Positions 960 to 7,337 of a stretch of DNA of 64,000 nt are shown here, piece by piece. The first letter of the stretch is position 1. Every line of letters begins with the position of its first letter. Made by a program: the position numbers and the translations under genes. Source of the stretch: Croceivirga lutea (GTDB lineage Bacteria > Bacteroidota > Bacteroidia > Flavobacteriales > Flavobacteriaceae); assembly GCF_014235875.1 (NCBI RefSeq), contig NZ_JACJUK010000002.1:496001-560000 (forward strand). The letters are read 5' to 3'. The notes below the pieces were generated by a model, which was given only the letters and a program-made list of their open reading frames with translations, made no database searches and was not told where the DNA came from.

Positions 960-2858
960 ATGAGTGATGCTATAAAGCACGAATGTGGGATTTCACTAAT
1001 TAGGTTATTAAAACCTTTAGAATATTATAAAGAAAAGTACGGTACAGCCTTTTATGGTGTAAATAAGATGTACTTAATGATGGAAAAACAGCACAATCGG
1101 GGTCAAGATGGTGCTGGTTTTGCTAGTATTAAGTTAGATATGAAACCCGGCCAGCGCTATATTAGTAGAATACGTTCTGCCAATCAGCAACCCATACAAG
1201 ATATTTTTTCTCAAATTAACGGCCGCATAAACTCAGAAATTGCACAACATCCGCAGTATTGGGATGATGTTGCCTATCAAAAAGAAAATATACCTTATAT
1301 AGGTGAGTTGCTGTTAGGGCATGTGCGCTACGGAACTTTTGGCAAGAACAGCATTGAAAGTGTACATCCTTTCTTAAGACAAAATAATTGGATGCACCGT
1401 AACTTAATTGTTGCTGGCAACTTTAATATGACCAATGTTGATGAATTATTTGGCAATTTGGTTGAATTAGGGCAGCACCCAAAAGAAATGGCTGACACCA
1501 TTACCGTAATGGAGCGTATTGGTCATTTTTTAGATGATGCGGTATCCAAACTGTATAAAGAAGTAAAAAAAGAAGGCTACACCAAGCGCCAAGCTTCGCC
1601 TCATATAGCAGAGCGTTTAAACGTGGGTAAAATTCTGAGAAAATCTGCGAAAAACTGGGATGGTGGTTACGCTATGGGTGGTTTATTTGGTCATGGTGAC
1701 GCATTTATGCTTAGAGACCCTGCAGGAATTCGACCAAGTTATTATTATAAAGATGATGAAATTGTAGTGGTTGCTTCTGAAAGACCAGTAATTCAAACCG
1801 TATTTAACGTAAAATATGATGCGGTACAAGAATTACCTCCGGGCAATGCTATTATTATAAAAAAGAACGGTAAGGTTACCCTTGAAGAAGTTCTGGAGCC
1901 GTTAGAGCTTAAAGCCTGTTCTTTTGAGCGAATTTATTTTTCTAGAGGAAGTGATAAAGAAATTTACCAAGAGCGTAAACTTCTGGGTAAGTTGGTTTTT
2001 CCTGAAATCTTGAAGGCAATAGATGATGATTTGAATAATACTGTATTTTCTTATATTCCAAATACTGCAGAAACATCTTTCTTTGGTATGGTTAAAGAAG
2101 CTCAAAGCTATCTTAATAAAAAGAAGGAAAAGCAAATTCTAGCACTTGGCTCAACTATTACTCCAGAAGAATTACATGAGATTTTAGATGTAAGGCCTCG
2201 TATAGAAAAGGTGGCAATTAAAGATGCTAAACTTAGAACTTTTATTACTCAAGATAGTAGTAGAGATGATTTAGTAACCCATGTTTATGATATTTCTTAC
2301 GGTTCAGTTAAAGAAACTGATAACCTTGTAATAATAGACGATAGTATTGTAAGAGGAACTACTTTAAAAAAGAGTATACTTAGAATGCTCGATCGTTTAA
2401 ATCCTAAGAAAATTGTTGTCGTTTCTTCTGCTCCACAAATTAGGTATCCAGATTGCTATGGTATAGACATGGCAAAACTAGAAGATTTCGTAGCGTTTAA
2501 GGCTGCAGTAGAATTACATAAGAAGAGAGGAACAGAAAACATCATAGAAGAAATTTATCAAAAGTGCTTAAAACAAGTTGGTAAAAAAGATTCTAAAGTG
2601 GTGAATTATGTAAAAGAACTTTATGAACCCTTTAGTGCTGATGAAATTTCTAAAGAGATAGCGTTATTATTAAGCCCAAAGGATATCAAGGCTGATGTTG
2701 AAGTCATCTATCAAACCATATATAACCTGCATGAAGCCTGTCCTAAAAATCTAGGTGACTGGTATTTTACAGGTGATTACCCAACCCCAGGAGGTAACCG
2801 AGTGGTTAATAAAGCATTTATCAATTTTTTTGAAGGAAATAACAAGAGAGCCTACTAA
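960..2858 (+). CDS. PurF-like amidophosphoribosyltransferase (long form)
   Basis: Class II glutamine amidotransferase fused to a phosphoribosyltransferase domain, 632 aa. Cys9 (in HECGIS) would be the N-terminal nucleophile after removal of an eight-residue propeptide. The PRPP-binding loop is IDDSIVRGTT at about residues 459-468. Known PurF catalyses PRPP plus glutamine to 5-phosphoribosylamine, the first step of purine synthesis. Classical PurF proteins are about 470-510 aa; this one has extra sequence in the glutaminase half (around residues 60-110) and a long C-terminal tail, so it may be a second, diverged PurF paralog. It follows a PfkB kinase by 26 nt. The purine-rich stretch before the ATG (GAGGAAAAGG) resembles a Shine-Dalgarno sequence but may be chance in this phylum. 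Confidence 0.85.
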   Translation: MSDAIKHECGISLIRLLKPLEYYKEKYGTAFYGVNKMYLMMEKQHNRGQDGAGFASIKLDMKPGQRYISRIRSANQQPIQDIFSQINGRINSEIAQHPQYWDDVAYQKENIPYIGELLLGHVRYGTFGKNSIESVHPFLRQNNWMHRNLIVAGNFNMTNVDELFGNLVELGQHPKEMADTITVMERIGHFLDDAVSKLYKEVKKEGYTKRQASPHIAERLNVGKILRKSAKNWDGGYAMGGLFGHGDAFMLRDPAGIRPSYYYKDDEIVVVASERPVIQTVFNVKYDAVQELPPGNAIIIKKNGKVTLEEVLEPLELKACSFERIYFSRGSDKEIYQERKLLGKLVFPEILKAIDDDLNNTVFSYIPNTAETSFFGMVKEAQSYLNKKKEKQILALGSTITPEELHEILDVRPRIEKVAIKDAKLRTFITQDSSRDDLVTHVYDISYGSVKETDNLVIIDDSIVRGTTLKKSILRMLDRLNPKKIVVVSSAPQIRYPDCYGIDMAKLEDFVAFKAAVELHKKRGTENIIEEIYQKCLKQVGKKDSKVVNYVKELYEPFSADEISKEIALLLSPKDIKADVEVIYQTIYNLHEACPKNLGDWYFTGDYPTPGGNRVVNKAFINFFEGNNKRAY

Positions 2859-2944: not shown

Positions 2945-3030
2945 TACTTTGGTATCACCATAGCATAAGTAGGTTAAGTTCATGGTAAGATTTGGGGCAA
3001 AAAAGGTGGAGTTTCTCCGCCTTTTTTATT
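2945..3030 (+). ncRNA. Tandem small RNA candidate, copy 1
   Basis: First of three near-identical units. A -7 box (TACTTTGG, 2945-2952) precedes a 40-nt conserved body (2958-2997, starting CCATAGCATAAG and ending AAGATTTGGGG). Then comes an intrinsic terminator, stem GGTGGAG / CTCCGCC, with flanking A and T tracts (2999-3027). The body is identical to copy 2. Its ends CCAT and ATGG can pair to close a hairpin. No start codon or plausible peptide lies in the body. Predicted transcript about 70 nt. It may belong to a known flavobacterial RNA family; I cannot test that here. Confidence 0.65.
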
Positions 3031-3152
3031 GCCCAATATTTTCCTGTACTACTTTTCTTAACGCCTTACACAGTAACTTCTTCAAGCAAAGTATTTTAAC
3101 TTATTTAAAGGGCGTTGGTCTAAAAACAAACATTAATAGCTGCTCTATAGCC

Positions 3153-3236
3153 TACATTTGAAGAACCATAGCATAAGTAGGTTAAGTTCATGGTAAGATT
3201 TGGGGTAAGAAGGCGGAGATTTCTCCGCCTTCTTTG
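3153..3236 (+). ncRNA. Tandem small RNA candidate, copy 2
   Basis: Second unit, 208 nt downstream of the first. It has a perfect TAnnTTTG -7 box (TACATTTG, 3153-3160) exactly 13 nt before the body, as in copy 1. The 40-nt body (3166-3205) is identical to copy 1. The terminator stem is GAAGGCGGAG / CTCCGCCTTC (3209-3232). Relative to copy 1 the stem replaces a G-U pair by G-C and A-T pairs by G-C pairs, so both arms change together. The intervening 110-nt spacer is not conserved, which argues for three independent transcription units rather than one transcript. Confidence 0.65.
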
Positions 3237-3323
3237 TATTGACAACCAACCTTTTAGTTGTTATAAATGTTAATTTTTTAACAAAACCAATCTTTAGTCT
3301 CCTAAAAATTTTCACGTTTATTT

Positions 3324-3434
3324 TTTGTTATTTAACACAATACCAGTAATTTAGTTTCGCCATAGCATAAGTAGGTTAAGTTTATGGTAAGATTTGGGAC
3401 GAAAAGGGTGGATGTATTTCCACCCTTTTCTATT
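3324..3434 (+). ncRNA. Tandem small RNA candidate, copy 3
   Basis: Third unit. A full promoter is visible: TTTG (3324-3327), 19 nt, then TAATTTAG (3347-3354, one mismatch to TAnnTTTG), again 13 nt before the body at 3360-3398. The body differs from copies 1 and 2 by a C-to-T change (TTTATGG for TTCATGG), which extends the closing helix to CCATA / TATGG, and by the last base. The terminator is a perfect 12-bp stem GAAAAGGGTGGA / TCCACCCTTTTC (3401-3430) with a different sequence from the other two copies. Confidence 0.65.
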
Positions 3435-3511: not shown

Positions 3512-4120
3512 TTATTTGTTTGCTTCATAATGTTCTGAAACCTTACTCCAATTAATTACGTTAAAGAAAGCAGACACATAATCTGGCCTTCTATTTTGAT
3601 AATTTAAATAGTAAGCATGCTCCCATACATCTAAACCTAATATTGGAGTTCCTTCACAACCAGTATCTGGCATTAGGGGGTTGTCTTGATTTGGAGTAGA
3701 ACAAACTTCTAGTTTTCCTCCTTTATGAACGCAAAGCCAAGCCCAACCAGAACCAAATCTGCTTCCTGCTGCTCCGCTAAACTCTTCTTTGAATTTATCA
3801 AAAGACCCAAAAGCAGCATTAATAGCATCAGCTAACGCACCAGAAGGGTTTCCGCCACCATCTGGAGACATTACCTCCCAAAATAAAGAGTGATTGTAAA
3901 AACCACCACCATTATTACGTACTGCACCATTAGACATGTCTAAGTTTGTAAGTATATCTTCAATACTCTTTCCGTCTAAATCAGTGTCTTTAATTGCAGC
4001 ATTAAGTTTTGTTGTATATCCGTTATGATGCTTTGTGTGGTGAATTTCCATAGTTCTAGCATCTATATGTGGTTCTAAAGCATCGTATGCATATGGTAAA
4101 TTAGGTAGTTCAAAAGCCAT
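3512..4120 (-). CDS. Superoxide dismutase, Mn/Fe type
   Basis: Dismutates superoxide to oxygen and hydrogen peroxide in the cytoplasm. The start chosen is the ATG giving [10 protein letters not shown] (202 aa); an upstream in-frame ATG would add a non-homologous 12 residues. Metal ligands are all visible: His27, His77 (NHSLFW), Asp164 and His168 ([18 protein letters not shown]). The [11 protein letters not shown] context and the Gln in [10 protein letters not shown] resemble Mn-type or cambialistic enzymes more than strict Fe-type; metal choice cannot be fixed from sequence. The gene is monocistronic, with its own terminator, and faces the tandem small RNA units across a short gap. No secretion signal. 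Confidence 0.95.
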
Positions 4121-4217
4121 TTTTTCGTGTTTTAAATTAATTTTCAATTCTTTCAAAAATACAATTTTAACATTTAAATGGCAGGTTTAGATGTGTTAAT
4201 AAGATGGTAAGATTTGT

Positions 4218-4232: not shown

Positions 4233-7200
4233 TTGATAAAAGAAAGTTTTAAAATTTTAAGCGCATCGGCTGGCACAGGAAAAACCTATAGGTTAACCAA
4301 AGCATTTCTTGTTCGTTTACTTGAAAAAAACTCCCTTGCAAATTTTAGAAGTTTATTAGCAATCACTTTTACTAACAAGGCTGTTTCAGAAATGAAACAA
4401 CGTATTTTAGATAATCTTGTTTTTTTTAGTAAGGAAAGTATTCTTAGTAAGCCTACAACACTATTTTCTGAAATTGCTCTTGAACTCAACCTAAGTAATG
4501 CAGAACTTCAACAACGTGCAAAACATACTTTAAAAAATCTTTTGCATCACTATGCGTTTTTTGATATTTCTACCATTGATAGGTTCAATCACAGGTTGGT
4601 AAGAACGTTTGCAAAAGACCTTAATATTTCTCAAAACTTTAATGTTGAATTAGATATTGACTACATCTTAAGTCTTTCTGTTAATCAACTTTTGTCAAAA
4701 GCCGGATCCAATGATCTACTTACCAAAATATTTATAGATTTTGCGTTGAATAAGATTGAAGATGGCAAAAGTTGGGATATTGCTTATGACTTAAATAATA
4801 TAGGCCAACTGCTCTTTCAAGAAAATCATTATGCACATTTAAAAAGTCTAGAAGAAAAATCAATCGCTGATTTTTTCGATTTAAAAAAAGCGCTTTTAGC
4901 GCAAATAAACTCTTTAAAAAATGAAATGATTAACGCGGCTAAAAATTCAAATGCGTTAATTAAAACCAATGGATTAGAGCCAACAGATTTTACTAGAAAA
5001 TTATTCCCAGCTTTTCTAACTCAAGTTATTAATGACCCAACAATAATTAATTTTAACGCAGCTTGGAAACAAGAATTTGAAACCACCATACTGTACAATA
5101 AATCTACTAATGAGGCTGTAAAAACCACTATTGACGGCCTAAAAGCTGATTTTATGGTCGATTTTACGAAAATCAAAAATAGTTTTGATAAAATTTCTTT
5201 TTTAGAACGTGTTCTCAAAAATATTGTACCATTAACATTGTTAGCAGAAATTCAAAAAGAATTAACTGTACTAAAGAATGAAGAAGGCTTTTTAACCATT
5301 AATGAGTTCAATGAACTTATTGCTAAAGAGATAAAAAAACAGCCTATACCTTATATATATGAACGATTGGGTGAACGGTATAGACATTATTATATAGATG
5401 AATTCCAAGACACCTCATTTCTTCAATGGCACAACTTGATTCCTTTAGTAAGTCATGCTATTGAGAGTGAAGACCAAAAAGGCAACCAGGGTTCCATTTT
5501 ATTAGTAGGTGATGTAAAACAATCTATTTACAGATGGAGAGGCGGTGAACCTGAACAGTTTTTAAACCTGGTTTTACAAAAAGAAAATCCATTTACTATT
5601 ATCTCTTCCGTTGAGCAATTAAATAAAAATTGGAGAAGTCATGAAGAAATCATTCACTTCAACAACTCCTTTTTCACCTTTATTGCTAACAAGCTTACCA
5701 ATAGCAGCCATTCAGCTATTTTTACTGATGGTAATAAGCAACAAACCAATGAAAAGAAAGGAGGCTTTGTTAAACTTTCTTTTTTACCAAACGAAAAAAA
5801 TGAAGAATCTAACGAACATTGCTTTAAAACCCTTGAACATATCAATGAAATTATCAATTCTGGATACGCCTTAGAGGATATAACAATCTTAGTAAGAGAT
5901 AAAAAGAATGAAAAGAAAATTGCCAATTATTTAATTGAACAAAATATTCCTGTTGTTTCGAGTGATGCGCTATTACTAAATTCTAGTCTTGAAATTAAGT
6001 TTTTAATAGCCTTTGCTGAATGGATTTTAAATCCTGAAGAAAATGAACATCAATATGCAATTTTAGAATTTCTAGTTGTAGATGTTTTAAAGCAACATGA
6101 TTTTTATACTTCTCATTTAAACAACTTACCAACTTATTTAAACGATACTTACGACTTAGATTTAGGAGTACTCAAGCATTTAAATCTCATAGATTTTTTT
6201 GAACACCTCATCCTAAAATTTAAGTTAGCAGAACAAAATACAGCATATATTACTGCATTTTTAGATGAAGTTTTTCAATTTGATAGTGAGCGCCAAGAAG
6301 GTCTTTTTGCGTTTGTAGATTATTGGAAATTAAAACAAGACAAGCTTTCACTACCAATGCCCGCAGAAGTTGATGCAGTTAAAATATTTACGATACATAA
6401 ATCTAAAGGACTAGAATTTAAATTTGTAATCTTCCCTTTTGCAGACACCCAAATAAATGATAGCAGAAAACAAAATAATGTTTGGGTTAACGTTGAACCA
6501 AGTTCTTTTGCAGGGTTCTCAGAAGTAATGATTAAAAACCATATGGCTCTAGAGAATTATTCTGACAACTCCAAAGCGGTATATGAAGAAGAAAATCAAA
6601 AATCAGAATTAGATGACCTAAACGTATTGTATGTTGCATTGACTAGGGCGGTTTACGGACTTTATATCATATCAGTACCAGTAAAAGAAAAATCAACACA
6701 ACGCTCCTACGCATCATTTTTTAAAGATTATATCGAACAAACACAAAAAGAAAATGATGAGAATGCAGCATATCAATTTGGAAAAATTGAGAAAGTAGCA
6801 AAGAAGCAACTTGAGAAAACACCAAAACATTTATCATTTATTCAAAACAATAAAACGCAAAATGATTTTCCAATTGCAACGGTAGAATATATTGGCAACC
6901 AAGAAGTCAATGAAGCTATTTTATTCGGAAATAAAATTCACGATATTCTATCCAATATTAAAGTTGCTACTGATGTTGATGTAGCAGTAGATACTTATGT
7001 AACACGGTATAATATAGGCCAGTCAGAAAAAGAACAAATAAAACAAACAGTGTCTAAAGTGGTAAACAATAACCAGCTACAGCACTATTTTTCTGAAGGA
7101 CTAACCATTAAAAACGAAGTAGAAATTTTAACAGAAGATAATGTTGTTTTAAGACCAGATAGATTGGTAATAAAAGAGAATAGAGCCACAATTATAGATT

Positions 7201-7337
7201 ATAAAACTGGCATTCCATCTCACAATCATGAAATTCAACTAAATTCTTATGCCCATGCCATTCAACGAATGGGGTATCAAATTGAAGAAAAACTATTAGT
7301 ATATATCAACGAAGAAATAAAAACTCTAGCAATATAA
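4233..7337 (+). CDS. AddA-like UvrD-family helicase/nuclease
   Basis: Superfamily 1A helicase with a C-terminal RecB-like nuclease, 1034 aa, the usual architecture of AddA/RecB in this phylum. Walker A is SASAGTGKT (residues 10-18), Walker B-type YIDEFQDTS at about 385-393, motif III region [13 protein letters not shown], and motif [10 protein letters not shown] near residue 800. The PD-(D/E)XK nuclease signature IIDYKTG lies at residues 987-993 (Asp989, Lys991). It should process double-strand DNA ends for RecA-dependent repair together with the AddB-like protein encoded at 10073. The start is TTG: no ATG lies upstream of Walker A in frame. The stop is 2 nt from kbl, suggesting cotranscription. 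Confidence 0.88.

Follow-up and report, generated by a model that had tools for sequence, protein, structure and literature searches.

A 64,000-nt stretch of the Croceivirga lutea genome (NCBI RefSeq assembly GCF_014235875.1, contig NZ_JACJUK010000002.1, positions 496,001 to 560,000 of the forward strand; hereafter, the window) carries three tandem units on its + strand, flanked by a purF-like gene on one side and a convergent superoxide dismutase gene (sod) on the other. Comparison with other genomes leaves little doubt that these units belong to a new family of small RNAs (sRNAs); it also brings out the locus of the family, its conserved segments, and their complementarity to the start regions of particular genes. 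On this sequence evidence we consider it slightly more probable than not that the units encode trans-acting antisense sRNAs controlling the start codons of genes of the type IX secretion system (T9SS) and of gliding motility. Each unit would be transcribed separately, from its own promoter, as an antisense sRNA of about 74 nt made up of a conserved 5′ hairpin, a single-stranded tail and a terminator. The exposed loop (AGUAGGUUAAG) and the tail (AGAUUUGGGG) would pair around the start codons of the targets, the fullest order in a target being 5′-CCCAAATC ... ATG ... ACCTACTT-3′. Such pairing would block translation initiation of gldM, gldL and the gene for a small sorting-domain protein; in C. 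lutea, a PorP/SprF gene and the gene for a T9SS-sorted subtilase may be further targets. The tandem copies would supply dose, and the separately conserved promoter of copy 3 suggests that this copy might answer to a control signal of its own. That the units are transcribed, that they pair in the cell, that the outcome is repression rather than activation, and that this has a physiological role, is what we infer from the comparisons below.

The 40-nt bodies of the units (2958-2997, 3166-3205 and 3360-3399) are identical in copies 1 and 2, while copy 3 shows two changes (C to T at position 24 and G to A at position 40), as an earlier reading of these letters made without database searches (the sequence-only reading) had described. 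A 38-nt body pattern allowing up to three mismatches had three matches in the window versus none in 100 shuffles. Outside the box, the body and the terminator, no clear similarity was seen among the window copies, in line with the description of the spacers as unrelated. The 8-nt boxes TACTTTGG, TACATTTG and TAATTTAG of copies 1 to 3 begin 13 nt upstream of the bodies; thus, the spacing claimed for a TAnnTTTG-like box held in all three copies, but the copy-1 box TACTTTGG is a weaker fit to that motif. The flavobacterial sigma-A box is placed at -12 to -5 in a published report (PMC9723704), and the predicted +1 positions were therefore set at 2957, 3165 and 3359, one base 5′ of the body CCATA. 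The predicted fold of each unit has two hairpins, one 5′ and one in the terminator (z = -3.80, -4.07 and -4.92 for copies 1 to 3). The terminator stems differ in sequence among the three copies and retain their pairing, and the body change in copy 3 produces a longer CCATA/TATGG helix; both points had been made in the sequence-only reading, and the folds bear them out. A predicted promoter and terminator for each unit, together with conserved exposed segments, are features expected of a trans-acting base-pairing sRNA, and the findings fit the earlier suggestion of separate sRNAs that may act in trans through an exposed conserved segment. In the draft C. lutea genome (3.45 Mb, 19 contigs), the only full copies were the three in the window (E 2e-37, 2e-21 and 6e-19). 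Partial matches elsewhere in this genome (L004-L008), considered as further copies, were judged to be coding sequence or lone seeds.

The sequence-only reading had proposed a covariance-model search of flavobacterial genomes, and such a search did reveal a family. Within the GTDB family of C. lutea, the 74-nt unit matched 163 of the 199 genomes in a DNA search (E ≤ 0.01), and a model built from 64 diverse copies (R2) matched 165 (E ≤ 0.001). The sRNA was not found by R2 in the remaining 34 of the 199, some of which are incomplete. With an earlier model (R1), matches with E < 1e-8 were confined to the same family when 196 order-level and 198 class-level genomes, own-family members included, were searched. 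Six weak order-level matches to R1 (E 3.4e-5 to 0.009) fell outside the family; four class-level matches outside it (L060-L063) were rejected as terminators lacking the body. Named matches belonged to Flavobacteriaceae genera (among them Maribacter, Zobellia, Arenibacter, Muricauda, Winogradskyella, Aquimarina, Algibacter and many Flavobacterium) or to Bacteroidetes/Flavobacteriia bins. The unit can be described by the pattern AGTAGGTTAAGTTNATGGTAN{0,1}GATTTGGG. A GldM tree of 54 genomes required six changes in sRNA presence (at least five of them forced by well-supported branches) versus a shuffled mean of 14.6, which suggests several losses of the sRNA.

The 80 named loci analysed, from at least 118 matching stretches, carried one to six copies each. 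In 76 of them purF and/or sod adjoined the units; of the remaining four, L081 sits at the margin of its stretch, and the others were perhaps at other places. Both this mostly fixed position and the terminator that closes every unit in the window might be expected of a repeat or terminator array with no trans-acting RNA function, or of a cis element of purF or sod. We regard this explanation as very improbable: the body is kept while terminators and spacers drift, a promoter box precedes the copies, no other full unit exists in the genome (there is one partial relative), and the exact pattern had no match in viral contigs in a single scan, phage and plasmid collections lying outside that search.

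When 81 copies, taken from 29 well-matching genomes of 28 genera, were aligned, 36 of the first 39 positions proved invariant. These 81, from 101 gathered copies, were collected with a limit of six substitutions and no insertions, so the count leans high, because divergent copies (e.g. one in L019) were left out. Among the same close copies the terminators, the spacers and most of the promoter sequence vary, the terminators still being able to pair. This is the opposite of what the sequence-only reading had said would speak against it, namely relatives in which the body varies freely and only the terminators persist. In a broader alignment of 64 copies drawn from 84 references, most loop and tail positions were at least 90% conserved, and in more distant genera it was mainly the loop GUAGGUUAAG and the tail AGAUUUGGGG that were kept. 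In other genera, Flavobacterium included, the stem of the hairpin drifts and one A is lost 5′ of GATTTGGGG; conservation is highest at GTAGGTTAAG (loop) and AGATTTGGGG (tail). In our judgement, which was not benchmarked, the family is unusually strictly conserved. Second copies in six loci (L086, L087, L097, L101, L118 and L132) have a much altered 5′ half and retain GTAGGTT and AGATTTGGGGCAAA. They look as if these two modules alone were needed, the search pattern having favoured precisely these modules.

In the 5′ hairpin, 89.9% of cells pair, versus 16-55% when it is slid. Four of its 11 pairs were changed on both sides, a value equally high in two of 500 shuffles. This covariation is modest and counts against reading much into it: slid controls reached up to five pairs changed on both sides. 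Since slid hairpins have as many, covariation was taken as weak evidence, the structure being carried by the fold and the sequence identity.

Conservation beyond what a seed requires raises the possibility that the body is a binding site for an RNA recognition motif (RRM) protein or another RNA chaperone, in which case the RNA would act, as CsrB-type or 6S-type RNAs do, as a decoy or a cofactor of a protein. The 36 of 39 positions that do not change near the window include the stem; several copies per genome would fit titration; and, according to PMC11697453, paralogous sRNAs of Bacteroides are bound by an RRM protein. In other genera, however, the two exposed segments vary less than the stem, and these segments are complementary to conserved start-region elements. 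We consider this reading improbable.

The copies fall into three subtypes: A, B and then C last in most close loci, a few loci having A only. Mean identity over -50 to -13 was 83% for type C (27 copies) versus 48% for type A (31 copies) and 55% for type B (42 copies). The conserved type-C letters read ..TTATTTc.CaCAATACCAG 5′ of TAATTTAG. This strong upstream conservation suggests a regulator of its own for type C, and a site for it likely lies upstream of copy 3, in the segment at window positions 3309-3346.

The best-conserved predicted targets are T9SS/gliding genes: gldM, gldL and a gene for a 108-aa protein consisting of little beyond a T9SS type A sorting domain. The latter gene has CCCAAAT, the complement of the sRNA tail, before its start in nine of the 11 best-scoring (closest) genomes. 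In seven of these the site lies within TTGATCCC(C)AAATCAA, just 3′ of a promoter box recognized by eye, and the leader has otherwise changed around it. Among 33 open reading frames (ORFs), CCCAAAT was missing from the second paralogue and from more distant homologues, save two weaker seed-like matches (L431 and L443). Cofolding of the sRNA and the sorting-domain leader gave -22.0 kcal/mol for C. lutea and -25.3, -20.3 and -24.3 kcal/mol for the other pairs of the four tested; in each case, none of 200 shuffled sRNAs did as well. Beyond the AUG, the predicted pairing continues into an element that reads ACC/ATC-TAC-TT or CCTACTTATG. Read as its reverse complement, CCCCAAATCTTACC-ATG-AACTTAACCTACTTATGC, the body resembles the leader and opening codons of the sorting-domain gene, as in L419 (..TTGATCCCAAATCAATACCCA-ATG-AAAATAACCTACCTG..).

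In other lineages the perfect 12-nt loop complement TTAACCTACTTA occurs at gldL in eight genomes (L269, L272, L274, L275, L277, L278, L448 and L449), and two of the four gldL duplexes tested beat all shuffles. Sites at gldL were found in 22 of 37 genomes with the sRNA versus two of 16 without it, and sites at gldM in 14 of 37 versus none of 17 (Fisher p = 0.002 in both cases, ancestry ignored). These tables cover 53 (gldL) and 54 (gldM) of 60 loci, the start having been missed by the regular expression in the rest. The gldL leader element is itself partly palindromic (CTACTTAAGTAG; e.g. L271 and L274), and could therefore fold into a hairpin or be bound by a protein as well.

Start regions were scanned in 1.2 Mb of the C. 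lutea genome (about 35%; 1028 regions) and 0.8 Mb of a second genome, G032 (about 21%; 665 regions), with ORFs called simply as ATG-initiated frames of 80 aa or more. CCCAAAT occurred in 17 C. lutea start regions, ranking first against 140 permutations of its letters (mean 5.0), and in eight of G032 versus 3.0 (rank 4 of 140); CCAAATC occurred in nine of G032 (rank 2). CCCAAAT was shared by two of 245 reciprocal-best pairs (0.08 expected), namely gldM and the 108-aa sorting-domain protein. The ordered pair CCCAAAT..CTACT occurred seven times, two of the seven genes being orthologues; permuting both seeds gave a mean of 0.25 (0/300 as high), keeping the first seed fixed gave a mean of 1.2 (rank 1 of 30), and the reverse order occurred once. 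The arrangement CCCAAATC followed by ATG occurred 70 times versus 55 for the control in G000 and 117 versus 29 in G032, sites within the sRNAs being counted. CCCAAAT or CCAAATC was carried by 22 C. lutea genes. Twelve were checked against protein families, and five proved to be T9SS genes: gldM, gldL, the sorting-domain gene, a PorP/SprF gene and a gene for a subtilase with a T9SS sorting domain. T9SS cargo, counted by regular expressions, made up two of the 17 CCCAAAT matches versus eight of 1028 in C. lutea (p = 0.007) and two of eight versus three of 665 in G032 (p = 0.0004), these being small numbers.

Several results weigh against a role of the sRNAs at T9SS start codons. Around 40 body k-mers were examined and the ranks are uncorrected; a few others rank as high (e.g. 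TTTGCCC and TGCTATG). The TTTGCCC enrichment was set aside because it coincided with promoter boxes at the gene inspected, and k-mers containing ATG were likewise set aside. A duplex energy of -17 kcal/mol or lower was reached in 16 of all 1693 start regions; 17 shuffled sRNAs gave 0-17, two of them at least 16. The top 50 included 24 signal peptides, within the range of nine shuffles (15-29). The bipartite pattern CCCAAATN{0,13}ACCTAC gave 161 matches over 60 genomes versus 136 for reversed-pattern controls (p = 0.16). The 10-nt tail by itself reached -13 or lower in five start regions (shuffles: mean 2.7, maximum 9). With a uniform window of -45 to +45 over the 1693 start regions, the sorting-domain gene came fifth in G032 and eighth in C. 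lutea, behind genes with no known T9SS link. The gldL duplex was weak in L271 (42/200 shuffles) and reached 5/200 in L278; in C. lutea the duplexes gave -7.2 for gldM (5/200) and -15.1 for gldL (3/200). The comparison of genomes with and without the sRNA is confounded by ancestry, as the six changes on the tree indicate, and some of the genomes lacking it are incomplete. Finally, the gldM and sorting-domain sites are absent from most of the more distant genomes that have the sRNA. The tail complement CCCCAAATCT, moreover, had nine sites in the C. lutea genome (two being the sRNAs themselves) versus five for the control, and was not concentrated at starts.

Conserved complementarity at start regions was thus seen for single genes and not in the genome-wide energy or bipartite-pattern tests. 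Since those tests and the signal-peptide count stayed within their controls, the claim about targets rests on conservation at single genes. An sRNA family of the base-pairing type might instead have other main targets, such as envelope or metabolic genes, the T9SS matches being a by-product of looking there after a first match. T9SS genes do not stand out in the energy tests that covered all start regions, the sites are not retained over the full range of the sRNA, and the genome fractions read and the 12 of 22 genes checked leave room for this. Nevertheless, both orthologous pairs sharing CCCAAAT are T9SS genes, gldL carries the loop complement in other lineages, and the sorting-domain site survives in an otherwise altered leader; we hold this alternative to be unlikely, albeit less so than protein binding. 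Control of T9SS/gliding start codons is retained as our interpretation. A wider version of it, offered tentatively, is that the body mirrors in antisense the start region of a gene for a T9SS protein, has changed little across Flavobacteriaceae and would serve as a family-wide RNA switch for both the motor (gldL, gldM) and its cargo.

Features of the three units and their neighbours in the window
Feature	Position	Strand	Remark
sRNA copy 1, type A, tail GGGGCAAAA; predicted transcript from +1 to U run	2957..3030	+	R2 94.7 bits
sRNA copy 2, type B, tail GGGGTAAG; predicted	3165..3238	+	R2 80.2 bits
sRNA copy 3, type C, U at body position 24, tail GGGACGAAAA; predicted	3359..3432	+	R2 86.2 bits
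Putative copy-1 -7 promoter box TACTTTGG, TAnnTTTG-like, -12 to -5	2945..2952	+	position compared with PMC9723704
Putative copy-2 -7 promoter box TACATTTG	3153..3160	+	
Putative copy-3 -7 promoter box TAATTTAG	3347..3354	+	same letters as consensus (at least 80% per position) of 27 type-C copies
Conserved region upstream of copy 3, -50 to -13	3309..3346	+	83% mean identity over 27 type-C copies
Exposed loop segment AGTAGGTTAAG, copy 1	2968..2978	+	equivalents in copies 2 and 3: 3176-3186, 3370-3380
Single-stranded tail AGATTTGGGG, copy 1, proposed seed	2988..2997	+	
Copy-1 intrinsic terminator hairpin	2999..3027	+	fold
Copy-2 intrinsic terminator hairpin	3207..3234	+	fold
Copy-3 intrinsic terminator hairpin	3401..3430	+	fold
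purF-like amidophosphoribosyltransferase gene, conserved upstream neighbour	960..2858	+	TIGR01134 117.8 bits, under the cut-off of 350
Fe/Mn superoxide dismutase gene, conserved convergent neighbour	3512..4156	-	Sod_Fe_C, Sod_Fe_N

Fragments related to the units were noted at other sites. At 4204-4216 of the window, ATGGTAAGATTTG is an exact 13-nt copy of part of the body, directly upstream of a helicase-like ORF (4233-7337). Elsewhere in the C. lutea genome, at C11:255776-255849 (L209:15776-15849, - strand), TTAGGTTAAAGATTTGGG followed by a terminator lies 3′ of a gene that by eye resembles the PorP/SprF T9SS type (R2 E 3e-4). This element holds both conserved sRNA segments close together and may be a relative of the sRNA derived from a 3′ untranslated region. 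The reverse complement of the sRNA tail, CCCCAAATCTTACC, is found in two diverged elements (L188 and L189, at C1:5183 and C11:760796) near genes resembling, by eye, a recombinase and a relaxase; these are possibly a transfer-origin motif, or chance.

Beyond the sequence-only reading, the analysis adds the spread of the family, its mostly fixed locus, the promoter and tail subtypes and the candidate targets. If the interpretation holds, gliding motility and type IX secretion could be approached post-transcriptionally through these sRNAs. Among the open-licence papers listed, none had a title or abstract describing control of gldL or gldM by an sRNA, which is not proof of absence. These bacteria mostly lack Shine-Dalgarno sites, and the nucleotides named here make sRNA target finding testable in such bacteria.

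Members occur in most of the genomes sampled from a large bacterial family, but no model in Rfam 15 matched them: in gathering and permissive scans, no Rfam 15 family reached its gathering score for the units. The suggestion that the unit may belong to a known flavobacterial RNA family thus found no backing, Flavo-1 (RF01705) giving no match in any Rfam scan, neither at gathering nor up to E 10. STnc40 (RF02057) was discarded at 34.4 bits versus a gathering score of 45, the close agreement falling in the terminator hairpin, and RmaA and sraA also scored under their gathering thresholds. PrrF1/PrrF2 and other tandem sRNA pairs are adjacent near-identical sRNAs, involved in iron control; the units share this arrangement and are otherwise unrelated, with no evidence of a link to iron.

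A closer likeness is offered by FopS of Bacteroides thetaiotaomicron. PMC11697453 describes 14 paralogous sRNAs of about 65-70 nt with canonical Bacteroides promoters and a conserved seed, which pair with the start regions of outer-membrane genes, mostly SusC genes, and block translation; RbpB counters this repression. The units resemble them as multicopy paralogous Bacteroidota sRNAs of similar length for which pairing at start regions is proposed. Identity with FopS (RF04319) was rejected, however, both by model (16.9 bits versus a gathering score of 56, E 6.1 in a 651-base search) and by layout, about a dozen paralogues at separate loci contrasting with three full copies at one locus here, in tandem also in relatives. 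The 14 members thus differ from a one-locus tandem array, SusC targets differ from the proposed T9SS targets, and there is no sequence match.

Candidate sRNAs are reported for F. columnare (PMC5395568), but among the published flavobacterial sRNAs with a phenotype, Rfp18 of Flavobacterium psychrophilum is the nearest that we found. In PMC9723704, its predicted targets are secreted-type metalloproteases and an adhesin, it is described as pairing via its third stem-loop, and two metalloproteases have less mRNA when it is deleted, which makes its effect positive. Rfp18 and the units are thus alike in having secreted-type proteins among their predicted targets, and differ in that the units have two stem-loops rather than a third one for pairing and in the sign of the effect, which is opposite to the repression proposed here. 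The comparison was by description and neither shows nor excludes identity; F. psychrophilum was not among the 80 named loci, themselves taken from at least 118 matching stretches. Were Rfp18 a member of the family, the novelty of the latter would fall, and support for a role in secreted-protein control would rise.
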